21,826 nucleotides of DNA from a virus: the IMG/VR virus record IMGVR_UViG_3300009494_000022, positions 1,126-22,951 of that record, one strand, 5' to 3'. A program made the translations under genes and the position numbers. Below the pieces are notes generated by a model. The model did no database searches. It was not told the DNA's origin and saw only the letters and a program-made list of their open reading frames with translations. This document shows, piece after piece, positions 3,622 to 20,966 of the stretch. The number at the start of each line of letters is the position of its first letter. The stretch's first letter is position 1.

Positions 3622-5244
3622 ATGCCGGCCCGCTGGCTGCTTGAGACCATTGCATGCGAGATCGACTCCGGTGCCCTCACAGTGCAGGAGGCCGTCGAGA
3701 AGCACCAGGTTTCCCGCTCTGCCATCTACCGGTACCTGCAGCAGTGCCGCGCCCCGGGCGAGCAGCGAGTGAAGTACACACCGCATGAATACCGGCTTGC
3801 CCTGGCGGTGTCGGCCGTGATTCTGCGCGCCATGTCGAAGAAGAAGAAGCGGACCATCCCGACCCACCTTGCCATCACCGAACTCGTCCGGCTCGGCCAC
3901 ATGCAGACCGACGACACCGGCCGGCCCGAGTTATCGGTCCGCCGCGCCAACCAGCTCCTCAAGGCGCTCGGCATCTCGGCCCGTCACATGCGCAACCCGT
4001 CGCCCTGCGTCCGGCTCCAGGCCGCCGGTCCGAACCACGTACACGAGGCGGACTTCACTGAGGCCGCGTTTGTCTACCTCGACAACCTGACTGTTCGGTT
4101 CCATCGCGAGCTGACAAAAAAGAAGAAACCGGCTCACCGTACCAAGATTCTGCTCGGTGTGGTAAAGGATCACTTCTCTCGGGCAATCCTGGCCGCCCGG
4201 GCCTACCCGGCGAAGGCCGAGGGTACGAGAGAAACGATGCAACTGCTCCACGACGCCTGGAGTCCCAAACTCGGGACCTCCGGGCTACCTCACGGCTTGC
4301 CCTGGAACCTGTACACCGATCAGGGCCCCGGATTCACGTCGCGCACGGCGAAGACGGCCTGCAAGGCGCTCTTCATCAGCCTCGACCCCCACTCTCCCGG
4401 CAACCCTCGCGCCACCGGCTTGGCTGAGGGCACCATCAAGTCGCTCACCACTTTTCAGCACCTGCTCAAGGCCCGCATGTGCCAGGGCGTGAGCATCGAC
4501 CTCGACCAGCTCAACGCCTGGATGCAAGAATGGGCCATCGACCAGAACACCCTGCCGCACCCGATGACCAAAGGCACAACCCGGGTTCAGGCCTGGCAGA
4601 ACATCGTCGATGACGACATTCGCCGCTGCCCGCCCTGGGACGTCTTCTGCAAGCTCGGGGCCTACCGCGACGAACCCCGCAAAGTCGCTTCCGACGGGAC
4701 AATCAAACTCGACAGCACTCACTACGCCGTTGGCACCGAGCACCACGGCCGCTTCGTCTATCCGTACAAAGGCCCGGACAACAAGGTCTACGTCGAGATT
4801 CCGGGTCAGGGCATCACCGGCCCGCTTCAGCCCGGTGTCCCGCTGGTTGCCTTCGGGACGTTCAAGCCGCCACCGCTCACCACGTCCGAGAAGCGCCTGC
4901 GCGAAGTCCGGCAGGTGGCAGAGGATGAGCTCGGCTACACCCCGGACGACGTCGAGTACCAGCGTCGCACCGACGAAGTCTGGCTGCCGCGTGAAGGCCG
5001 CAAGGTCGTTGATGACGCCGGCAGTTCCGACCGCTTCTACGCATCGGTCTTCGAGGCCAAGTCCGCCCTGGCCGACACCGTGGACCTCGGTTCGCTCCCG
5101 CACGAGGTGGTAGAGGAGATCGAGCGCACGCTCGAAGACCGGGCCGACAAAGCCGGGCTGATCTCCACCGCTGTCGTTGACGAAATCGCCGGTCTGGTTT
5201 CCGCGTCCGACCGGTCCGACGGGTCAGGCAGGTCCGACTCATGA
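3622..5244 (+). CDS. DDE transposase (Mu A / TniA / TnsB-like)
   Basis: A 540-residue protein. An HTH at about 18-41 (TVQEAVEKHQVSRSAIYRYL) and a second basic helical region to about 130 should bind the phage ends. The rve/RNase H catalytic core follows, with D144 (HEADFTEA), D233 (YTDQGPGF) and E269 (GLAEGTIKS). There are 35 residues between the second Asp and the Glu, the spacing of retroviral integrases and TnsB/TniA types rather than the longer gap of MuA. A Mu-transposase C-terminal beta-barrel lies at about 335-410 (DGTIKLDSTHYAVG). The C-terminus ends in a Ser/Asp/Arg tail (ASDRSDGSGRSDS) encoded by a GTCCGAC-type repeat. The product should carry out integration and replicative transposition of the phage with the ATPase at 5609. 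Confidence 0.93.
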   Translation: MPARWLLETIACEIDSGALTVQEAVEKHQVSRSAIYRYLQQCRAPGEQRVKYTPHEYRLALAVSAVILRAMSKKKKRTIPTHLAITELVRLGHMQTDDTGRPELSVRRANQLLKALGISARHMRNPSPCVRLQAAGPNHVHEADFTEAAFVYLDNLTVRFHRELTKKKKPAHRTKILLGVVKDHFSRAILAARAYPAKAEGTRETMQLLHDAWSPKLGTSGLPHGLPWNLYTDQGPGFTSRTAKTACKALFISLDPHSPGNPRATGLAEGTIKSLTTFQHLLKARMCQGVSIDLDQLNAWMQEWAIDQNTLPHPMTKGTTRVQAWQNIVDDDIRRCPPWDVFCKLGAYRDEPRKVASDGTIKLDSTHYAVGTEHHGRFVYPYKGPDNKVYVEIPGQGITGPLQPGVPLVAFGTFKPPPLTTSEKRLREVRQVAEDELGYTPDDVEYQRRTDEVWLPREGRKVVDDAGSSDRFYASVFEAKSALADTVDLGSLPHEVVEEIERTLEDRADKAGLISTAVVDEIAGLVSASDRSDGSGRSDS

Positions 5245-5608: not shown

Positions 5609-6544
5609 ATGGCTACCATGTTCCGCGTCAACTGCTCGGCTCGGACTTACGAGAGCCGGTCAGTCAAACGCATTGCTCGGGAGGTCGACTCCCTTATGGA
5701 CAGTCCCGGCGCGACCCTTGTCGTCATCGGCGAGATCGGCGCCGGCAAAACCACGGCTGCATTCCACGCGCTCGGTCCGCACGAAGAAAGCGGTGACCGC
5801 ATTATCTGGATACAGCATCCGGACCGGGCTCATCTTGGCATCGGCACCATCATGAGCGCCATGGTCCGGACTCTCAAAGAAGCAGTCCGGCGCGACATCG
5901 ACGCCCGGACCGAGCAGCTCCGCAAGCTCCTTGGCACGGCGACGCGGGAGCACCGGGTCTGTGTCGTAATCGACGACGCCCAGGAACTCCCTACCCGCAC
6001 GCTCCGGGCGCTCAAGCTCCTCCTCGAGCTCCACTTCGCCCAGCGCAAAAGCCTGTTCTCTCTGCTCCTGGTCGGCACGCCCGAGCTCGAATCCCGGCTC
6101 CAGATGGTGCCGCAGCAATTCTGGCGCTGCCGGTTCGTCGACCTCAAGCTGCTCTCCCAGACCGAAGCCAAGGCCCTGGCGCTCTGGGTTGCGGACTGGG
6201 GCAACGTCCCGATTGACGCTGCTGCTGCGGAAGCCATCGGCAAACGCTACCAGAACCCGCTTGTCATCGCCAGCGTCGTCGCCGGGGTCCAGGACATGGC
6301 CGAGCGTGCTGCCGAGAAGCGCGTTACGGCAGCGGTCACCCGCACCTACCTCAACGCCGCACTGCGGCGTCAGGTCGAACGTGCCGGCATCAGCCAGGGC
6401 GACCTCGCGAAGGAACTCGGCTGGTCCCCGGCCAAAGTGTCGAAGGTCGTCACCGGCAATTACCCCGGGGACAGGAGTTCTGAACTCGTCGCCGGCCTGG
6501 CCCGGATTCGCAACGGCAGCACCGCGAAGGCAGGTGCACGATGA
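5609..6544 (+). CDS. AAA+ transposition ATPase (MuB/TniB/TnsC-like) with C-terminal HTH
   Basis: A 311-residue protein. Walker A is GEIGAGKTT (41-49), Walker B VCVVIDDAQE (117-126) and a sensor-1-like LLVGT (153-157), as in the MuB, TniB and ExeA-related ATPases that choose target DNA and activate the transposase. Residues about 255-285 (ISQGDLAKELGWSPAKVSKV) form an XRE-type HTH. In MuB the HTH is N-terminal, so the domain order is reversed here. A strong AAAGGAGG site precedes the ATG. The stop overlaps the next ATG (ATGA), so the transposition operon continues without a break. Confidence 0.9.
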   Translation: MATMFRVNCSARTYESRSVKRIAREVDSLMDSPGATLVVIGEIGAGKTTAAFHALGPHEESGDRIIWIQHPDRAHLGIGTIMSAMVRTLKEAVRRDIDARTEQLRKLLGTATREHRVCVVIDDAQELPTRTLRALKLLLELHFAQRKSLFSLLLVGTPELESRLQMVPQQFWRCRFVDLKLLSQTEAKALALWVADWGNVPIDAAAAEAIGKRYQNPLVIASVVAGVQDMAERAAEKRVTAAVTRTYLNAALRRQVERAGISQGDLAKELGWSPAKVSKVVTGNYPGDRSSELVAGLARIRNGSTAKAGAR

Positions 6545-7663: not shown

Positions 7664-8134
7664 ATGACCACCCCCCAGTACCGCCTCGTCTACGGCATCG
7701 CCCGCAAGCTCGGCTACGACAACGACGTGCTCCACGCCCTGGTCAAAGACCTCTTCAACAAGACCTCGCTCCGCGCCCTGCGTGAAGACGAAGCGCACAA
7801 GCTCATCAACCGACTCAAGCGCCTGGCCGGCCAGCCGGTTGAACCCGGCTACCGCACGCCCGGCATGACAGTTGACGACAAAGGAACGACCAGCGAATAC
7901 TGCTCCCCGGCCCAGGCGTACATGATTCGCTACCTCTGTCGTGCGCTGGGCGTCAACCAGACCAGGCTCTGGGGCATCATCCACACCCGCTTCGGACTCC
8001 GCCGCCACATGCACACCCTGGACAACCTCCGGCACCCGGACGCCGAGAAACTCATCCTGCAACTCAAGACCGAGCGCGAAGAAAAGAAACAGCGGGCCAA
8101 GCTGGCCGCCCGCCAGACCGACCTGTCCTTATAA
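7664..8134 (+). CDS. GemA/Gp16-like protein (DUF1018)
   Basis: A 156-residue protein. The N-terminal pattern YRLVYGIARKLGYDNDVLHA, then NKTSLRAL and a helix with LINRLKRLAG, matches the Gp16/GemA (DUF1018) family found in Mu-like phages, here with a longer C-terminal part (RYLCRALGVNQTRLWG and a basic coiled-coil end). In Mu, GemA modulates host gene expression and DNA supercoiling. The ATG has no visible Shine-Dalgarno site; the upstream 50 bases are nearly all pyrimidines. It is typical of the early/middle region and supports assignment to the Mu group. Confidence 0.8.
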   Translation: MTTPQYRLVYGIARKLGYDNDVLHALVKDLFNKTSLRALREDEAHKLINRLKRLAGQPVEPGYRTPGMTVDDKGTTSEYCSPAQAYMIRYLCRALGVNQTRLWGIIHTRFGLRRHMHTLDNLRHPDAEKLILQLKTEREEKKQRAKLAARQTDLSL

Positions 8135-8168
8135 TAGACATGTCCCATTCTGCTTTGAAGGAGGCACC

Positions 8169-8951
8169 ATGAGATTCCAAGCCATCTACCGCCCTCGCGG
8201 CCGGGCCGCGGAATACGCCGAGTGGGCGTGCAACCTCTACACCGGTTGCTCCCACCGCTGTCATTACTGCTACGGCCCGCGCATCACCCACCAGACCCCG
8301 GACCAGTTCGGCCGGCCCAAGCCCAGGGAAAACATCCTCGGCAAACTCAGGCATGACGTCGAGCTCATCGGCCGGCTTCGGAACGAGAACCCCGGACGCA
8401 GCGACATCCCCAGGGTTGTCCACCTCTGCTTCACCTGCGACCCCTACCAGCCCTGCGAACGCAAGCACCTGCTTGCCGCTTCCGCTCGCGGGATTCTCCA
8501 CTTTGCCGGCATCGGGGTCCAGGTTCTCACCAAAGGCGCGGACCTGGCCGAGGCCGACTTCAACCACTACGGTCCGCTCGACTCATTCGGCTGCACCCTC
8601 ACCTGGCCGTCTGAGTGTGAGGATTCCCGTCAATGGGAACCCTTCGCCGACCCGCCTCACGCCCGGATGGCCGCGCTCAAAGAAGCCCATGTTTGCGGCA
8701 TCAGGACCTGGGTCAGCCTCGAGCCTGTCATCCGGCCCGAGCACGCGCTCGCCCTGGTCGACATGACTCATGACTATGTCAACGCCTACCGCGTCGGTCC
8801 GCTCCTGTTCCACCCGGACGTGACCGCGCACATCGACTGGGCTGAGTTTACCCGGGATATCTCCGCACTTTTCGCCGTCTATAACTACGATAGCGAACTA
8901 AAACGCAACCCCGGCAACCTCCTGTTCGCAGCAGGGGAAGCCACGTCATGA
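8169..8951 (+). CDS. Radical SAM protein, spore-photoproduct-lyase-like (COG1533 type)
   Basis: A 260-residue protein from ATG 8169, which has a strong GAAGGAGG site; the longer upstream frame overlaps the GemA-like gene and is not used. The CX3CX2C cluster motif of radical SAM enzymes is present as C27SHRC31HYC34, coordinating a 4Fe-4S cluster that cleaves S-adenosylmethionine. The flanking pattern (RGRAAEYAEWACNLYTGC, then FGRPKPRENIL and FTCDPYQPCE) is that of SPL/COG1533 proteins. The substrate is unknown; members include DNA photoproduct repair enzymes, but many are uncharacterised. It is an accessory gene for a Mu-like phage. Confidence 0.85.
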   Translation: MRFQAIYRPRGRAAEYAEWACNLYTGCSHRCHYCYGPRITHQTPDQFGRPKPRENILGKLRHDVELIGRLRNENPGRSDIPRVVHLCFTCDPYQPCERKHLLAASARGILHFAGIGVQVLTKGADLAEADFNHYGPLDSFGCTLTWPSECEDSRQWEPFADPPHARMAALKEAHVCGIRTWVSLEPVIRPEHALALVDMTHDYVNAYRVGPLLFHPDVTAHIDWAEFTRDISALFAVYNYDSELKRNPGNLLFAAGEATS

Positions 8952-9406
8952 GTCGCCGTTGCTCCATCTGTGGCTGCACCGACGCTCACGCCTGCATGAC
9001 TCCCGAGAGTCCCTGCTACTGGGTTGACGACAATCTCTGCTCGTCTTGTTGGGGCCTGCTGCAGAAGTTCCCGAACGACACCCCCGAGCACCGGTCACTC
9101 CGTTTCATCTTCCGCGCCCTGAACGACGCGACGGTCAGGCATCCGGGTTGGATGCGAGACCCGATTCACGGCGCGGCCGTCATCGCCGAGGAAGCGGGGG
9201 AGATCTGCAGCGTGGCAACCGACCTGGTCTATAACACCCTGAGCGTTGAGGAACAAGAGTGGGCATGGGCGCACATGCGCGAAGAAATCGCTCAGACCGC
9301 GGCCGTCTGCCTCCGGATGCTGATGGCGACCGAAGACCGGTCCGCGGTCATCCAGCACGCCATCGACCGCAACGACTACGAGCACGACAAAGAGGCCAGG
9401 TCATGA
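8948..9406 (+). CDS. MazG-like protein with N-terminal zinc-binding motif
   Basis: A 152-residue protein whose ATG overlaps the radical SAM stop (ATGA). Residues 5-34 hold C5xxC8GC10, C16, C23 and C31xxC34, likely a zinc-binding module. The rest is a helical MazG-like nucleotide pyrophosphohydrolase: E81E82xxE85 and E112E113IAQ116. The Gln at the usual Asp position occurs in some phage MazG-like families. Such enzymes hydrolyse (d)NTPs or alarmones and can counter host stress signalling; the substrate here is not known. Coupling to the radical SAM gene suggests joint expression. Confidence 0.72.
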   Translation: MSRRCSICGCTDAHACMTPESPCYWVDDNLCSSCWGLLQKFPNDTPEHRSLRFIFRALNDATVRHPGWMRDPIHGAAVIAEEAGEICSVATDLVYNTLSVEEQEWAWAHMREEIAQTAAVCLRMLMATEDRSAVIQHAIDRNDYEHDKEARS

Positions 9407-9693
9407 GTCGCTGGCATCCCGGACAGTATCGTTCCACCGGTGGCCCGAGGGTCCACCGCTTCCGATGCACCTGTGTTGCCTGCGGGGACACCTTCATCCG
9501 CCGTGGTCGCTGGCACCCCAACACGGGCCCCTGCAGTGAATGCGGCGGCCACGTCCGCCGGCAACGCCTGGGCCCCGACAACGTCCCCGTCGGCTTCGGT
9601 CCTTACCCTGGAACCCTGGACCCCTCGACCCCTGGACCCCTTTCCTCGACCCCTCGATCCCTTCCCTCGACCACTGGACCCCTCACCGCATGA
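9403..9693 (+). CDS. Zinc-ribbon protein with repeat-derived C-terminal tail
   Basis: A 96-residue protein from ATG 9403 (overlapping the previous TGA). Two cysteine pairs (C24xxC27, C44xxC47) form a zinc ribbon in residues 20-50. The last third is low complexity, made of Pro, Ser, Thr, Gly and Leu (TLDPSTPGPL and similar), encoded by the tandem repeat at 9606-9683. The frame closes at the ATG of the MuF-like gene (ATGA). Function unknown; a nucleic-acid-binding role is only a guess. Confidence 0.6.
   Translation: MSRWHPGQYRSTGGPRVHRFRCTCVACGDTFIRRGRWHPNTGPCSECGGHVRRQRLGPDNVPVGFGPYPGTLDPSTPGPLSSTPRSLPSTTGPLTA
9606..9683 (+). repeat. Degenerate tandem repeat of CCCTCGACCCCTGGACC
   Basis: About four to five imperfect copies of a 16-20 base unit (CCCTCGACC, CCTGGACC) run through the end of the zinc-ribbon gene up to the MuF-like start. 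A related short copy (CCCTCGACCCCTCGGCCCC) lies at 14335-14357, before the portal gene. Confidence 0.7.
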
Positions 9694-10706
9694 CCTTAGA
9701 ACTCGAATCTTCCCGCTCGGTCCGCCGCCTGACGACCGTACTGCGCAGCGTCAAACAGGAGACCATGGCGAAGATGGCCTCGCTGCCCGACGGCGAGTCG
9801 GCTCGCTACCGCTACATGCGCGACTACACCACCGAACTCGACCGGCTGATTCTCGGCTCCCGCAAGGGCGGAAGGATTGTGGTCCGCCCACTCGCCGAGC
9901 GCCTGGCGTCCAGCATCCCGGTCAGCAAGGTCTTCACCGACGCTCATCGCGGGACCGCCCGCGACCTTAACAATGCGCTCGGCCTGGCCGGCCCGCTCAA
10001 CCTGGCCGTCACGGTTCCGCTTATCGACAAACAGGCCCTTGCGTTCCTCGAAGACTACAAACTCGACCTCATCACCAAAGTCACCACTACCGGCCGGGCC
10101 GACATCAGGTCCGCGCTCCGCCTCGGCATCGTCCAGGGCGATGGCGTCGCCGCGGTCTCCCGTCAGATGCTCCGGCAACACCGTGCACTCGCCGGCCGCA
10201 CCGAGCGCATCGTCCGCACCGAACTCGCCCGGGCCAGGGCCGAAGGTCACCGCCGCGGCTACCAGCAGCTTGGTGTCACCCGGGTCGAGATCATCGGCAT
10301 CGGGATCGACTGCCCGATCTGCGGCAAATACATCGGCAAGGTGTACCGCATGGACTCAGCCCCGAGGCTGCCGCTTCATCCCAACTGCCGGTGCGACTTC
10401 GTCGCGGTCGAAATCGGGGACGGCAACTGGCTCATCACTCAGCGCCAGTTGGATTACACGGCTCGCCTGCCCTTGCCCGATGAAGTCCGGATCACTCCCG
10501 CCGTGGTCCGCCGCATTGCCGAGACCTCCCCGCGCGCCATCTACGCCTGGCCCTCCGCGCCCGACGTCCTCACCCGCGGCCGCACGACCGAATCCAAAGG
10601 CGTAACGACCTACTCCCTCCGCCGTCCCAAACCCTTCGTCGCCAACCTCCGCACGATGGCCATCGACGTCAGCGGCAAACGCATCACCGACGCCCGCCTC
10701 AACTGA
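9690..10706 (+). CDS. MuF/SPP1 gp7-like minor head morphogenesis protein
   Basis: A 338-residue protein from ATG 9690 (coupled to the previous stop). The C-terminal half shows the MuF signature: RTELARARAEGHRRG (176-190), C208xxC211 in GIDCPICGK, and HPNCRC (230-235). About 100 further residues follow and match nothing I know. MuF proteins associate with the portal and are packaged or injected with the DNA. In Mu the gene follows the portal gene; here it stands before the lysis and terminase genes and before the predicted late promoter. Confidence 0.85.
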   Translation: MTLELESSRSVRRLTTVLRSVKQETMAKMASLPDGESARYRYMRDYTTELDRLILGSRKGGRIVVRPLAERLASSIPVSKVFTDAHRGTARDLNNALGLAGPLNLAVTVPLIDKQALAFLEDYKLDLITKVTTTGRADIRSALRLGIVQGDGVAAVSRQMLRQHRALAGRTERIVRTELARARAEGHRRGYQQLGVTRVEIIGIGIDCPICGKYIGKVYRMDSAPRLPLHPNCRCDFVAVEIGDGNWLITQRQLDYTARLPLPDEVRITPAVVRRIAETSPRAIYAWPSAPDVLTRGRTTESKGVTTYSLRRPKPFVANLRTMAIDVSGKRITDARLN

Positions 10707-10747
10707 TCCGGTCCGCGTCCGACGTCCGTTCCTCGTCCTTCGTTCTT

Positions 10748-10873
10748 CGTTCCTTCCCCTGGTGTTCTTGGTGCTCTTGGTGTTTACTCCGCTTCTCGTT
10801 CTTCGTTCTTCCATCAGTGTTCATCAGTGTTCATCCGTGGTTTCCTCGCTCCAATCATCCGTGGTTTCATTCC
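10748..10873 (+). repeat. Dispersed composite repeat, copy 1
   Basis: The core CCTGGTGTTCTTGGTGCTC is followed by TTGGTGTTTACTCCG, a CTTCTCGTTCTTCG stretch, tandem GTGTTCATCA units and CCGTGGTTTC. The final GTGGTTTC unit is repeated at 10861-10868. The same modules in the same order occur at 15719-15880, 19235-19325 and 20876-20966. Confidence 0.85.
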
Positions 10874-11259: not shown

Positions 11260-11568
11260 ATGCAGGAACTCCTGGACATCGTCAAAGTTACCGGTCCGGC
11301 GATAGCCATCGCCCTGTGGATCGCCATCGCGCTCTGGCGCAAAAACGTCGAACTCCAGCAGCGCATCTTCCAGCTCTACGACCGTTTGCTCCAGGAGCAA
11401 CGGCAACTCCTGACCGCCCCGCTCGAGCTGCTTCGTTCCCGGTCCGAGGCCTCGGGGGCCGACCTGGTCGGCGGGTACATTGACCTGCTTACCCAGCGCA
11501 CCGATGAACTCAAACGGGAAATTGACCGCCTTCATAAGGACAAGGGGTCTTCTGTCCCTAAGAGCTGA
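11260..11568 (+). CDS. One-pass membrane protein with coiled coil, possible holin
   Basis: A 102-residue protein. One hydrophobic helix at about 10-26 (TGPAIAIALWIAIALW) is followed by RK and a long charged coiled coil (NVELQQRIFQLYDRLLQEQR and onward). The TGA is adjacent to the ATG of the endolysin gene, the usual place for a holin or holin-like partner. A single N-terminal span with a cytoplasmic coiled coil is seen in some phage holins, but the assignment rests on context. A weak GGCGGA site precedes the ATG. Confidence 0.6.
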   Translation: MQELLDIVKVTGPAIAIALWIAIALWRKNVELQQRIFQLYDRLLQEQRQLLTAPLELLRSRSEASGADLVGGYIDLLTQRTDELKREIDRLHKDKGSSVPKS

Positions 11569-12285
11569 ATGTCTCTTTTCCGCCGCCGCAAACCCAAGCC
11601 CAAACCCAAACCCAAGCCCACTACTCGTCGTTCCCGCCCGGCCGCCCGCGTCCGACCTGTCCGACGTGTCCAACCGGTCAGACCTCGGCTCCTCACCTTC
11701 TGCGGCGACGCCGGCCACGGCGGACCGGACTCCGGCGCCGTCAGCCGGTCCGGACTCAAAGAAAGCACGCTCGCACTGATTATGACCAACCGCGTTGGCA
11801 ACATGCTCAGCGCCCTGGCCCAGAAGGTATGCTACACCCGCCCCGGCGACTACGGATTCCGACCCGGCGCTCGGCTCAAAGTCGCCGCCGCATGTCACGC
11901 CGACGTCGGCTTCTCGATCCATTACAACCATTACACGACCCCGGGTCCCCGCGGCTTCGAGGTCTGGACTTCCAAAGGCGATACCCTTGCCGACCCGATT
12001 GCGACCAGGGTCTACGCCGAAGTCCAGGCCCGGCTGCCGGGTCTGCCGGTCCGCAAAGACTTCGCCGATGGTGACATCGACAAAGAGCGGCGGCCGAACC
12101 AGCAAGACCTGTACATGCTCTGCGACACGAAGCCTCCCTGGCTCCTGATCGAAGTTCTCTTCCTCTCGAACCCCGAAGACGTGACCCTGGTTCTCGACCC
12201 GGCCTTCAACACCCTGATGGCCGAGGCAATTGCCTGGGGTCTGATCCGTGGCGCCCGCAGCGTCCTGCGTGGCAAAGATGCCTAA
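11569..12285 (+). CDS. Endolysin: N-acetylmuramoyl-L-alanine amidase (Amidase_3)
   Basis: A 238-residue protein. The Amidase_3 fold has the expected zinc ligands and catalytic residue: H50 (GDAGHGG), E65 (GLKEST), H118 (FSIHYNH) and E195 (LIEVLFLSN). It should cut the bond between muramic acid and the stem peptide at host lysis. The first 40 residues are unusual: a (KP) repeat and an Arg/Pro/Val-rich segment (RVRPVRRVQPVRP) encoded by GTCCGAC-type repeat DNA. There is no signal peptide, so it would need the holin. Its last bases overlap the small terminase start. Confidence 0.88.
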   Translation: MSLFRRRKPKPKPKPKPTTRRSRPAARVRPVRRVQPVRPRLLTFCGDAGHGGPDSGAVSRSGLKESTLALIMTNRVGNMLSALAQKVCYTRPGDYGFRPGARLKVAAACHADVGFSIHYNHYTTPGPRGFEVWTSKGDTLADPIATRVYAEVQARLPGLPVRKDFADGDIDKERRPNQQDLYMLCDTKPPWLLIEVLFLSNPEDVTLVLDPAFNTLMAEAIAWGLIRGARSVLRGKDA

Positions 12286-12775
12286 GAAACATCGCGTCGA
12301 CCTCCACGAGCAGGCCTTCCAGCTCTTTCTTCAGAATCAGTCCTTCGAGAAGATTGCCGACGAGATCGGGGTCGCCAAATCCACAGTCCAGCGCTGGAGC
12401 AAAGGCAACCCTGGCCGCGGCGAAAAACCCTGGTCCGCCCGCGCGGCTGCCATCCGCCGCAAAGCCCGGGCCTCGACCGACAAACGTGCGGCCGACGTCA
12501 TCGGCAAACTCTACGCCCAGACCGTTTCTCTGCGCGACGACGTGCTCAGCGAGTTGGAGAATACGCACTGGAAGTCCAAAGAGGGAGCTATCGCCGCGGT
12601 CCGTTCCCTGACCGACCTGGTACTCAAGATGATGCCCGAGCGCCGCGAGCTCAAAGACGAAGCGCTCCAGGCCGTGTTCCAGGTCCTCTTCTCCGACCCC
12701 GACATCGGCCCGGTACTCGAAGAACACAAAGACCGGATTCTCGGCCGTATCGACAAAGCGCTGAACAAAGTCTGA
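12278..12775 (+). CDS. Small terminase subunit / Mu gp27-like HTH protein
   Basis: A 165-residue protein from ATG 12278, which overlaps the amidase stop; an upstream in-frame ATG would extend into the amidase coding region without reason. The N-terminal HTH (FEKIADEIGVAKSTVQRW) followed by PWSARAAAIRRKA and a helical C-terminus fits the DNA-recognition subunit of phage terminases. The gene directly precedes the large subunit with a TGATG overlap, the standard arrangement. It should bind packaging-start DNA near the phage left end. Confidence 0.8.
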   Translation: MPKKHRVDLHEQAFQLFLQNQSFEKIADEIGVAKSTVQRWSKGNPGRGEKPWSARAAAIRRKARASTDKRAADVIGKLYAQTVSLRDDVLSELENTHWKSKEGAIAAVRSLTDLVLKMMPERRELKDEALQAVFQVLFSDPDIGPVLEEHKDRILGRIDKALNKV

Positions 12776-14334
12776 TGGCGGCAAAGAAGCTCGTCTACAC
12801 CACTCGCCAGCGCCGGGCGCTCGACCTGTTCCGCCGGTCCCTGGCGACCAGCCAGGAATACCGGCTCCAGTACCGGACCCGGCCCCGCGATTTCTTCGCT
12901 CAGTTCGGCCACAAGTTCCCGCCGATACTCCGGAAGCTCTTCGACGACGTCTACCATGGCCGTCAGAAGAACGTAGTAGTCCGGGCCCCGCGCGGCGGCG
13001 GCAAGACCTTCTTCGCCGCGGACATCGCCTTCGCCAAGTTCTACCTCCAGGGCTGGAACGTCCTCGACGTTGCCGGCGCGCTCGACCAGGCAACGATTCT
13101 CAACGAGTACGTCAACGAGTTTCTCGACAACCGGGAAGTCAGTCGGTACGCCGAGGGTGAAACCCGGGTTCTCGTCACCGGCAACGACGGCAACTGGATT
13201 CGGGCCTGCGCCAGCTCTCAGACCGCTGTCCGCGGTAAACACGCCCGGGGCCGGCCCATGCTGCTCATCATCGACGAAGCCGCTCTGGTAAAGCCGGCCA
13301 TCCTCCGGTCGGCCCTCAACACCCTGACCGACGCCTCCGATAGCATCGTCCTCTACCTCTCCACGCACCACGAAGTCACCGGCCGCTTCGCCGAAATGTG
13401 CGACGACCCGGCCCGGTTCGGCGTGGTCCTCGTCACTTACGACTCCTTCGACGTCGCGGCGAAATGCACCGGTGACTGTGACCACTGCTTCGACGTCTGG
13501 CGCGAGACCCTGAAGCCCGGCATGGCGGACCAGTACACCGCCGAGTTCCGGGACCACTACTGCCAGGGCCGTGCCCACAAAGGCGAAGGTCACCTCAAAG
13601 TCCAGCAGATCCGGGCCGCCCGGGTCCGCAACCTGTTCAAAGAATGGTTCGAGACCGAAAACATGGGATGGGCTCCGTCCGGTGAAGGCGCGGTCATCGC
13701 CCCGGACAAAATCAAAGCCGCCTACAGTTACGACACGCTTGAGTTCAAACCCGACGCCGACCACTGGTTCGGCATCGACTGGGGCGTGAAGTCCATGACC
13801 ACGATCAACGTTCTCCAGTGGGACGGCGAGACCGTTGACCACCTTGCATCCACGCAATTCTCCGGCGTCACCCTTCCGCTGATCGAAGAGCAACTTGATC
13901 GCTGGGCCGCGGAGTACTGCACTCGTGAAGTCCGGGCTGACTCCTCGCACCCCTTCGAGAACCAGAAGCTCGCCGAAGACGGCTTCGACGTCACGCCGGT
14001 CAAGTTCGGCGACTACAAATCGACCGGTATCGGCTGGGTCAGATACCTGATCGAGACCGACCGCTGGCGCGGGCTCCGCGAGTTCGAGGTTGTCATCGGG
14101 CAACTGCTCAAATGGAAGTACGACAAGCACGGCAAGCCGGTCAAGAAAGACGACCACCACCCGGACGGCCTGCTTGCCGGTACCCATCACATCAACGAAG
14201 GTGCCGGCGGCCGCGGCTTCATCGGCTCGGTTCCGTTGTCTGACTCTGCTGCCGAGTCTCGGCTCGACGCCCTCTTTCATACCGGCGCCCGCAACCTCGA
14301 CCGCCTCATCGGTTCCGGAGTCTCCGATGAATAA
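12775..14334 (+). CDS. Large terminase subunit (Mu gp28-like)
   Basis: A 519-residue protein. ATPase: Walker A APRGGGKT (71-78) and Walker B MLLIIDEA (162-169). RNase H-like nuclease: D335 (FGIDWG), D389 (VRADSSH) and D464 (HHPDGLL). A cysteine group (C231, C235, C238, C263) in the linker could bind zinc. The enzyme powers DNA packaging and cuts the replicated, host-flanked phage DNA. Its length and domain order are normal. A very long open frame on the opposite strand (15411 down to 12511) is a by-product of codon bias. Confidence 0.92.
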   Translation: MAAKKLVYTTRQRRALDLFRRSLATSQEYRLQYRTRPRDFFAQFGHKFPPILRKLFDDVYHGRQKNVVVRAPRGGGKTFFAADIAFAKFYLQGWNVLDVAGALDQATILNEYVNEFLDNREVSRYAEGETRVLVTGNDGNWIRACASSQTAVRGKHARGRPMLLIIDEAALVKPAILRSALNTLTDASDSIVLYLSTHHEVTGRFAEMCDDPARFGVVLVTYDSFDVAAKCTGDCDHCFDVWRETLKPGMADQYTAEFRDHYCQGRAHKGEGHLKVQQIRAARVRNLFKEWFETENMGWAPSGEGAVIAPDKIKAAYSYDTLEFKPDADHWFGIDWGVKSMTTINVLQWDGETVDHLASTQFSGVTLPLIEEQLDRWAAEYCTREVRADSSHPFENQKLAEDGFDVTPVKFGDYKSTGIGWVRYLIETDRWRGLREFEVVIGQLLKWKYDKHGKPVKKDDHHPDGLLAGTHHINEGAGGRGFIGSVPLSDSAAESRLDALFHTGARNLDRLIGSGVSDE

Positions 14335-14394: not shown

Positions 14395-15708
14395 ATGAAC
14401 ATCCTCACCCGTGGTCTCCGCCGCGTCGGCGATCTCTTCCGGGTCCACAATCTTGAAGGCGAGACTGTAAACCTTGAGCACCTCGACCCGACCCAGCTCA
14501 AACAAGCCTACCGCGAGGTCCCCTTCGTTGCCCCGATTGTCAACGTCGCTGCCAGCTTCATCTTTGCCGGTGGCATCGAAGTCCGGAGCGAAGACGAAGA
14601 AGCGGCTGAGGCCTGTACCGACTTCTTCCGCGCCAACGACGGCGACCTGCAGCGGGCCGCCGTCGAGGCCTGCCTCTACGGCTACACCTGGCTCCTTCCC
14701 CACTGGGACGACGGCCGCCCGCGCCTGCGTGTCTACTCGCCCGGCGCCGTTGCGCTCATCCCCCACCCGGACCGTCCCTGGGTAACTCAGCAGGCGGTCA
14801 TCACCTCGACCCAGGGCCCCAAGCGCACGGTCCAGACCATTACTGCCGACCGCTACGAAATCACGGTCAACGGCCGTGTTGCCGAGCGCGGCCGCAACCC
14901 ACTCGGGCTGATACCGGTTATCCCGGTTCACCTCAATCGTTTCTCCGACGACCTTTACGGTACGGGCGAGATCTCCGACGTCCTCTACCTGTCCCTGCGC
15001 GAGTACGCCCTGCTCCGGGCCAAAGGCATCAAGATCGAAAAACGTCAGAGTTCGTTGCTGGCGATCTCCGGCCTCAAAGGCTTCGAAGCGCTCAAGTCCA
15101 AGATTGAAAAGCTGGCAGCCGGCGACGCCATCCCGGGCATCTACCTTCCCGACCCCAAAGGCAGTGTCAAGTTCGTCGAATCCCTGCGTGGTCCCGAGGG
15201 CATCATCGAACTGCTCAAGATGCTCTACCACCACATCATCGGTCAGTCCGAGACTCCCGAGTACCTGCTTGGTGTCGGCATGCCCTCGGCCCAGGCTTCG
15301 ACTGCCGAACAACGCGCGGTCATCGAGCGCAAGACCGCCCGGCTTCGTTCCTCCTGGTCCGCCGCGCTTCAGCAGCTCAACCACGTTGTGCTCCGGCTCC
15401 ACGAAGTCCACCAGGTCCGCCGCTACGAGACCATGGAGACCGACATCGAATTCGGGCCCCTGTTCGACAAAGACGCCGCTGCTGCTGCCGCTGCCCTGCA
15501 GAAGAAATCCGTCGCGCTCGTCGGGCTCCAGTCGGTTGGCGCGATCTCGACCGAAACGATGCGCGAAAACCTTGAAGAAGTAGTCGACGACCCCGAGCGC
15601 GAAGCCGAGCGGGTCAAAAAAGAACGAGAGTCCGGTGCCGCGTTCCCCTACCCGCCCGAGCCTGAGCCTGCCGAGCCCGGCGAAGAGGAAGAGGAGCCTG
15701 GAGAATGA
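14395..15708 (+). CDS. Portal protein
   Basis: A 437-residue protein directly after the large terminase. The portal pattern is visible: VPFVAPIVNVAASFIFAGG near the N-terminus, PLGLIPVIPVHLNRFSDDLY (about 163-182), GEISDVLYLSLREYALL and MLYHHIIGQSETPEYLLGVG. The C-terminus ends in an acidic tail of Glu and Pro. It forms the dodecameric ring at the capsid vertex through which DNA enters. The ATG lies about 12 bases after a GGAGGGGAG site. It resembles SPP1 gp6-type portals as much as Mu gp29 (DUF935). Confidence 0.85.
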   Translation: MNILTRGLRRVGDLFRVHNLEGETVNLEHLDPTQLKQAYREVPFVAPIVNVAASFIFAGGIEVRSEDEEAAEACTDFFRANDGDLQRAAVEACLYGYTWLLPHWDDGRPRLRVYSPGAVALIPHPDRPWVTQQAVITSTQGPKRTVQTITADRYEITVNGRVAERGRNPLGLIPVIPVHLNRFSDDLYGTGEISDVLYLSLREYALLRAKGIKIEKRQSSLLAISGLKGFEALKSKIEKLAAGDAIPGIYLPDPKGSVKFVESLRGPEGIIELLKMLYHHIIGQSETPEYLLGVGMPSAQASTAEQRAVIERKTARLRSSWSAALQQLNHVVLRLHEVHQVRRYETMETDIEFGPLFDKDAAAAAAALQKKSVALVGLQSVGAISTETMRENLEEVVDDPEREAERVKKERESGAAFPYPPEPEPAEPGEEEEEPGE

Positions 15709-15718
15709 CCTCCGCCTT

Positions 15719-15880
15719 CCGCGTCCGACCGGTCGGGGCTCGGGGATCGGGGCTCGGTCCGTGTCAGACTTGTCCGGCGGGTCCGACCGGTCCGACGCCC
15801 GTTCCTCGTTCCTCGTTCTTCGTTCCTTCCCCTGGTGTTCTTGGTGCTCTTGGTGTTTACTCCGTGTTCATCCGTGGTTA
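15719..15880 (+). repeat. Dispersed composite repeat, copy 2 (shortened)
   Basis: The order is GGGGCTCGGGG units, GTCCGAC units, GTTCCTCGTT units, the CCTGGTGTTCTTGGTG core, then GTGTTCATCCGTGG. Relative to copies 3 and 4 it lacks the segment between ACTCCG and the last TGTTCAT. It fills the gap between portal and protease genes (15709-15907), which holds no gene. The ribosome binding site of the protease follows at about 15896. Confidence 0.85.
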
Positions 15881-19058: not shown

Positions 19059-19331
19059 CATGTCCGCCTGCCGCATCGCTCCTTTCCCTGTCCCCTCCCG
19101 GGGCAGGGGAGGAGCGGCGCGGATAGGGTTCAAGGGTTCCAGGGTTCAAGGGTTCCAGGATTCTTCTCCCTCTCCCTTGACGGGAGAGGGCAGGGGTGAG
19201 GGTGCCGGTTCCCCGTTCCTCGTTCTCCGTTCTTCGTTCCTTCCCCTGGTGTTCTTGGTGCTCTTGGTGTTTACTCCGCTCCTCGTTCTTCCATCTGTGT
19301 TCATCAGTGTTCATCCGTGGTTTCACTTCTG
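19059..19331 (+). repeat. Repeat-filled spacer with two hairpins and composite repeat copy 3
   Basis: No gene. A G/C hairpin (CCCTG-T-CCCC at 19086-19095 against GGGGCAGGG at 19100-19108) is followed by tandem GGGTTCAAGGGTTCCA units (19127-19159). Next comes a perfect 9-base hairpin CCCTCTCCC (19168-19176) / GGGAGAGGG (19182-19190), the inverted-repeat family common in bacterial intergenic DNA. The composite repeat core and tail follow (19235-19325) and end seven bases before the next ATG. Either hairpin could end capsid transcription, but neither has a T run. Confidence 0.75.
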
Positions 19332-20710: not shown

Positions 20711-20875
20711 ACAGACCTCCTCAATCCTCATTCCTCATTCCTCATTCCTGGCACTGAAGCCCCCCGTCCCGCTTCACTCCGGTCGGCCGGGGCTCGGGGC
20801 TCGGGAATCGGGGTTCGGGGTTCCGTCCGCGTCCGACAGGTCCGACGGGTCCGACTGGTCAGACTCCCGCCTCTT

Positions 20876-20966
20876 CGTTCCTTCCCCTGGTGTTCTTGGT
20901 GCTCTTGGTGTTTACTCCGCTCCTCGTTCTTCCATCTGTGTTCATCAGTGTTCATCCGTGGTTTCA
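20876..20966 (+). repeat. Dispersed composite repeat, copy 4
   Basis: Preceded by GGGGCTC units (about 20788-20823) and GTCCGAC units (20830-20865), the core CCTGGTGTTCTTGGTG and tail CATCCGTGGTTTCATT match copy 3 almost base for base. It ends 20 bases before the start of the next gene. Confidence 0.88.

Follow-up and report, generated by a model that had tools for sequence, protein, structure and literature searches.

Three genes lie between a GemA-like gene and a MuF-like head gene in a phage that is Mu-like by its gene content in profile searches, and they raise the question of what a radical SAM protein, a MazG-like protein and a small zinc-ribbon protein do in this position. The window analyzed here, a stretch of 21,826 nucleotides, covers positions 1126-22951 of a phage record that is 22,951 bp long and incomplete; its features are collected in Table 1. 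The explanation that we favor, with a probability of about 0.5, is that of an acquired cassette that carries a nucleic-acid-modifying radical SAM enzyme along with passenger genes.

Table 1. Features of the window (numbering of the window; SPL, spore photoproduct lyase; L223, the related locus described in the text)
Feature	Position	Strand	Remarks
Transposase	3622-5244		
MuB-like ATPase	5609-6544		
GemA-like gene, left cassette flank	7664-8134	+	Pfam GemA 7.6e-7; 38% identity to L223 GemA
RBS-like GGAGG directly upstream of the P0002 gene	8160-8164		
Radical SAM protein P0002	8169-8951	+	260 aa; phrog_13321 family; predicted SPL / PA0069-like fold
Fe-S motif C27-x3-C31-x2-C34 of P0002	8247-8270	+	each Cys kept in 80/81 family members
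C87-F88-T89-C90-D91-P92-Y93 of P0002	8427-8447	+	F88 aligned with SPL Cys140, C90 with SPL Ser142 (alignment to 4fhc)
S183-L-E185-P186 motif of P0002	8715-8726	+	common to DUF5131 as S-x-E-P
MazG-like protein P0001	8948-9406	+	152 aa; N-terminal Cys-rich (putative zinc) module, residues 5-34
Zinc-ribbon protein P0003	9403-9693	+	96 aa; repeat-derived C-terminal third
Tandem repeat directly before MuF start	9606-9684	none	units of 8 and 21 bp
MuF-like head gene, right cassette flank	9690-10706	+	Pfam Phage_Mu_F 1.1e-6; 46% identity to L223 MuF
Amidase	11569-12285		
Large terminase	12775-14334		
Portal	14395-15708		

An earlier, sequence-only reading had described three overlapping genes at 8169-9693 as an accessory block, and as one not usually seen in Mu-like phages, and both points were borne out. 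The open reading frames were confirmed, and 4-bp ATGA overlaps join P0002 to P0001, P0001 to P0003 and, beyond the trio, P0003 to the MuF start at 9690. Read from 9690, the MuF N-terminus is MTLELES, and that of the syntenic MuF of L223 is MDLELQS; because the two align, we take 9690 as the true start and the open reading frame from 9540 as over-extended. The cassette is apparently coupled translationally to the head genes. The P0001 and P0003 genes start within near-identical junctions, with 18 of 20 positions shared between 8937-8956 (GAAGCCACGTCATGAGTCGC) and 9392-9411 (GAGGCCAGGTCATGAGTCGC), and both proteins begin MSR; the two sites are possibly a duplicated coupling junction.

The site without the three genes was found in L223, the sole relative reached via the large terminase, which is 45% identical. 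Six syntenic homologues keep their order there at 37-46% identity (GemA, MuF, the small open reading frame at 11260 in window numbering, TerS, TerL and portal), and MuF, starting at 2067, directly follows GemA, ending at 2054. The radical SAM profile had no match in L223, and neither did the cassette proteins in blast comparisons. On the basis of this one relative, the GemA-MuF junction of L223 therefore marks the three genes as an insertion, and they look like an accessory cassette, at about 8135-9689, acquired by a Mu-like phage. A transposase-seeded search found no relative. Low-complexity, text-like repeats, mostly intergenic, were also noted at 9606-9684, 10725-10868, 15800-15827, 19125-19319 and 20718-20960; the repeat sequences of the window include CCCTCGACC, CGTTCCT and CATCAGTGTT. 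These are perhaps host-typical intergenic repeats acquired by the phage.

Judged by its profile matches, P0002 belongs, as a divergent member, to a large radical SAM family of phages. The phrog_13321 profile matched its core domain at 6.1e-16 (residues 13-190), and a search of 2.9 million viral contigs returned 86 radical SAM relatives. The NCBIfam models PA0069 (1e-10, 41.2 bits, cut-off 360) and Rv2578c (3e-8, 33.1 bits, cut-off 430) both matched below their cut-offs, and at this level of similarity P0002 is related to these equivalogs and not a member of them. PA0069 and Rv2578c, which are COG1533-type proteins, belong to the same family by profile and have the same Fe-S motif, whereas the phage proteins are shorter and have SLEPV and CFTCDPYQ motifs. 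Pfam Radical_SAM matched weakly (3e-4), the SPL model TIGR03886 did not reach its cut-off (13.2 bits against 437.55), and the DUF5131 model PF07505 had no match in the window record. A bacterioferritin match confined to one short stretch was treated as chance. We know of no tested function for phrog_13321 or PA0069-Rv2578c-type proteins, and none was found for any member of the radical SAM family in the literature searched.

The AlphaFold2 model of P0002, built from a 66-sequence alignment, reached a pLDDT of 91.7. Tested for membership of the radical SAM superfamily, P0002 has the CxxxCxxC motif and, by its model, the partial TIM barrel that carries it. Among solved structures, the model was closest to SPL (Z 16.9, rmsd 3.5, 227 residues), in keeping with the SPL-type radical SAM enzyme that had been proposed from the sequence, followed by the tRNA enzyme TYW1 (Z 15.2); both of these top matches act on nucleic acids. 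The C87 and C90 columns of the family hold Cys at both positions in 66 members and Ser, Thr or Gly at both in 14. This pattern may reflect a redox pair, or else one change in the ancestor of a clade.

The genomic neighborhood of the family was then clustered for 81 non-redundant members. ParB was present in 31 of these loci and a protein of about 200 aa, c2, in 23, often directly upstream; neither lay within 4 kb in 36 of the 81, in some cases owing to contig ends. The c2 protein resembles a Trm1-like class I methyltransferase (PDB 2dul, E = 1.6e-4, over 78 residues; DxDAYGxP motif). In a control set of 80 loci selected by a terminase, we counted ParB in 45, c2 in none, this radical SAM family in 2 (one being the query's own contig) and DUF5131 in 2. 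Although its 31 loci looked like a strong link, ParB was rejected as a specific partner and regarded as background because 45 of the 80 controls carry it, whereas c2, absent from all 80, is a specific partner of the radical SAM family. In the window phage record neither c2 nor ParB had a match, the record being incomplete and the c2 query lacking a positive control in that run, while the c2 profile finds members elsewhere. In one locus (L086, 5508-6572), c2 and a terminase-small-subunit domain (phrog_309, 4e-17) form one fused protein, which links the methyltransferase to DNA packaging; an equally long c2 open reading frame occurs in L008 (8518-9588).

Loci were also fetched with c2 itself, using single-sequence queries, and removal of near-copies left 23 non-redundant loci. 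Thirteen of these carry the radical SAM gene, nine carry DUF5131 (also named Gp37/Gp68), none carries both, and one short contig carries neither (Fisher p = 1.2e-5). Either gene was thus present in 22 of 23 c2 loci, against 4 of 80 terminase controls (p = 2e-17). DISPLACEMENT by DUF5131: c2 loci without the radical SAM gene carry DUF5131 in the same region, above the Pfam cut-off in 10/10 such records. When 37 radical SAM records were searched over their full length, DUF5131 exceeded its cut-off in none, and the three sub-threshold matches proved to be the radical SAM genes themselves. Beside c2, the radical SAM family stands in for DUF5131. Moreover, the radical SAM gene often adjoins c2 in c2-fetched loci, on either strand, and since the association survives strand flips it is not just operon hitch-hiking.

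The two families also resemble each other in sequence. Profile-profile comparison aligned them with a probability of 96% (E = 4.5e-9, 197 columns), with the Cys, LTK and S-x-E-P motifs of the one matched to those of the other, and on this comparison they share ancestry. Both have a three-Cys motif, in which six residues separate the first two Cys of DUF5131 versus three in the radical SAM family. Besides the slot by c2, the families share one after SSB in some phages: SSB is the gene immediately before the radical SAM gene in the recombination operons of two Bacteroidales phages, PDS1 and C1_85S2P, and immediately before DUF5131 in Erythrobacter phage R6L. In contrast, a DUF5131 partner found in Gordonia phage Easley, where the two genes abut, is a different annotated methyltransferase, TcmP (TIGR04474), which was not found in c2 loci. 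At least 153 records of sequenced phages contain DUF5131, which in those listed is mostly annotated as hypothetical; the literature searched held no paper on the function of DUF5131 or TcmP. One-for-one replacement beside the same methyltransferase suggests that DUF5131 is itself a radical SAM-type enzyme. As to placement, genes on the opposite strand to c2, often just before the terminase, were seen both for the radical SAM family (L112, L114, L115, L117, L119 and L125) and for DUF5131 (L113, L118, L120, L123 and L126), and in two control loci without c2 (L189 and L192) DUF5131 lies directly after TerL on the opposite strand.

By analogy, the radical SAM family is probably a nucleic-acid-modifying enzyme equivalent to DUF5131, and we infer its substrate and chemistry on the same footing. 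A [4Fe-4S] cluster held by C27, C31 and C34 would cleave S-adenosylmethionine, and the resulting 5'-deoxyadenosyl radical would initiate modification of a DNA (or RNA) base by abstracting one of its hydrogens. A methyltransferase would usually act alongside, namely c2 in many phages and TcmP for DUF5131. The family itself shares ancestry with SPL, PA0069/Rv2578c and DUF5131. Chemistry on nucleic-acid bases is the best-fitting reading because of the fold neighbors SPL and TYW1, the Trm1-like partner and the slots among packaging and recombination genes. Of the roles that the sequence-only reading had listed, nucleotide modification thus survives in an altered form, with nucleic-acid modification as the best guess by analogy with DUF5131 and with the Trm1-like c2, not the other genes of the trio, as the partner. 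Because P0002 is divergent and its record has no c2, a function in the window phage itself can only be inferred. A broader proposal would see in the pairing of c2 with a radical SAM enzyme, SPL-like or DUF5131, an unrecognized phage nucleic-acid modification pathway, of which the window phage would hold a divergent, stand-alone copy in a three-gene cassette; we advance it tentatively, at somewhat less than even odds.

Among the alternatives, the one that survives best, though we consider it unlikely, is that the radical SAM enzyme modifies RNA, most plausibly host or phage tRNA, with its Trm1-like partner, for example in evading tRNA-cleaving defenses. Trm1, the best solved match of c2, is a tRNA guanine methyltransferase, and TYW1, second among the fold matches of P0002, is a tRNA-modifying radical SAM enzyme. 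However, the short match between c2 and Trm1 may reflect the methyltransferase fold only, and the genes sit among packaging or DNA recombination genes.

A different possibility is that the copy in the window is drifting or decaying and has no current enzymatic role, being carried along by its coupling to the head genes. P0002 sits on a long branch of the family tree (1.62 versus a median of 0.51) and, of 60 strongly conserved columns, it differs at 10, with Leu for N213 and Arg for K208 among the changes, so that it may have drifted in function. Furthermore, its last 18 residues are disordered in the model, at a place where relatives keep a YYxK motif. Outright decay is nevertheless quite improbable, given a full-length open reading frame in which all three cluster Cys and the CFTCDPY, LTK, EP and SLEP motifs are intact.

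Repair of UV lesions in phage DNA by a photoproduct-type lyase, which the structural match to SPL might bring to mind, is more doubtful still. SplB is the closest solved fold to P0002 and shares its CxxxCxxCY motif, and Tyr98 of SPL, after the third cluster Cys, corresponds to Y35 of P0002, a Tyr in 72 of 81 members. SplB differs in its length, about 340 residues versus 260, and above all at its active site. Cys140 of SPL is the essential catalytic H-atom donor. In the profile alignment, C140-T-S142-D of SPL falls on F88-T-C90-D of P0002, and the F88 column holds Phe in 80 of 80 aligned family members; since an invariant Phe thus occupies the Cys140 position, SPL-type repair is unlikely, and the DNA photoproduct repair suggested by the sequence-only reading fails at the very residue that it had proposed to check. 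C90, at the position of Ser142, could by the same alignment face the pocket. Moreover, sequence similarity to SPL was marginal (best E = 0.012), and the family lies near terminase, methyltransferase and recombination genes, not UV repair genes.

The remaining two genes of the cassette were compared with known families in the same way. P0001 matched phrog_31484 (1.6e-10) and had no Pfam match, Pfam MazG included. With ORF29 of Xanthomonas phage CP2 it has a common core, EExGE...REExxQTAA, at 38% identity over 72 aa. Like MazG and the all-alpha NTP pyrophosphohydrolases, it has the EExGE ... REE helix-pair signature; helices are predicted for it as well, at low confidence (pLDDT 55 from a single sequence). 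Tested against the MazG metal-binding signature EExxE(12-28)ExxD, P0001 has E81-E82-x-x-E85 but E113-x-x-Q116 in place of ExxD, and because of this replacement its pyrophosphohydrolase activity is uncertain. It also differs from the MazG family in its N-terminal module, whose CxxCxC...CxxC pattern recurs on an unrelated phage protein, H14. P0003 contains two CxxC knuckles, and its last third is translated CCCTCGACCCCTGGACC-type tandem repeat.

Neither gene was found to accompany the radical SAM family elsewhere. The search of the 2.9 million viral contigs returned no relatives of P0001 or of P0003, blast found neither protein in 83 other radical SAM loci, and phrog_31484 occurred in 1 of 50 radical SAM records, the window itself. 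Pfam MazG was found in 2 of 50 records, one above cut-off, with a model that is insensitive and misses both P0001 and the MazG of PDS1. Immediate neighbors of radical SAM genes include terminase small subunit, sliding clamp, DNA methyltransferase, HNH nuclease and PAPS reductase, and across 70 other immediate neighbors no family occurred more than 4 times. The trio was therefore rejected as a conserved system, its genes not having been found together elsewhere, an outcome that the sequence-only reading had itself named as refuting, and, as PADLOC returned no defense-system match for it, also as a known defense system; the alarmone or defense role once put forward for it found no evidence. Least probable of all is a single nucleotide-directed pathway in which a nucleotide, produced or eliminated by the MazG-like protein, is modified by the radical SAM enzyme and bound by the zinc proteins, or in which an alarmone defense is disarmed. 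The three genes are tightly coupled by ATGA overlaps, and Parabacteroides phage PDS1 has an annotated MazG five genes downstream from its radical SAM gene. However, relatives of P0001 and P0003 were not found near other family members, Pfam MazG, an insensitive model, is rare there, and the P0001 core has ExxQ versus ExxD. The P0001 and P0003 genes would instead be independent passengers of the same cassette, with P0001 probably a nucleotide pyrophosphohydrolase of weak or altered activity and P0003 probably a small ribbon that binds nucleic acid or protein.

Taken together, the trio itself is an ordinary accessory cassette, and the part worth following is the radical SAM family, which alternates with DUF5131 at the side of a Trm1-like methyltransferase. 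A radical SAM or DUF5131 gene together with c2 offers a concrete pair for finding new DNA or RNA modifications.
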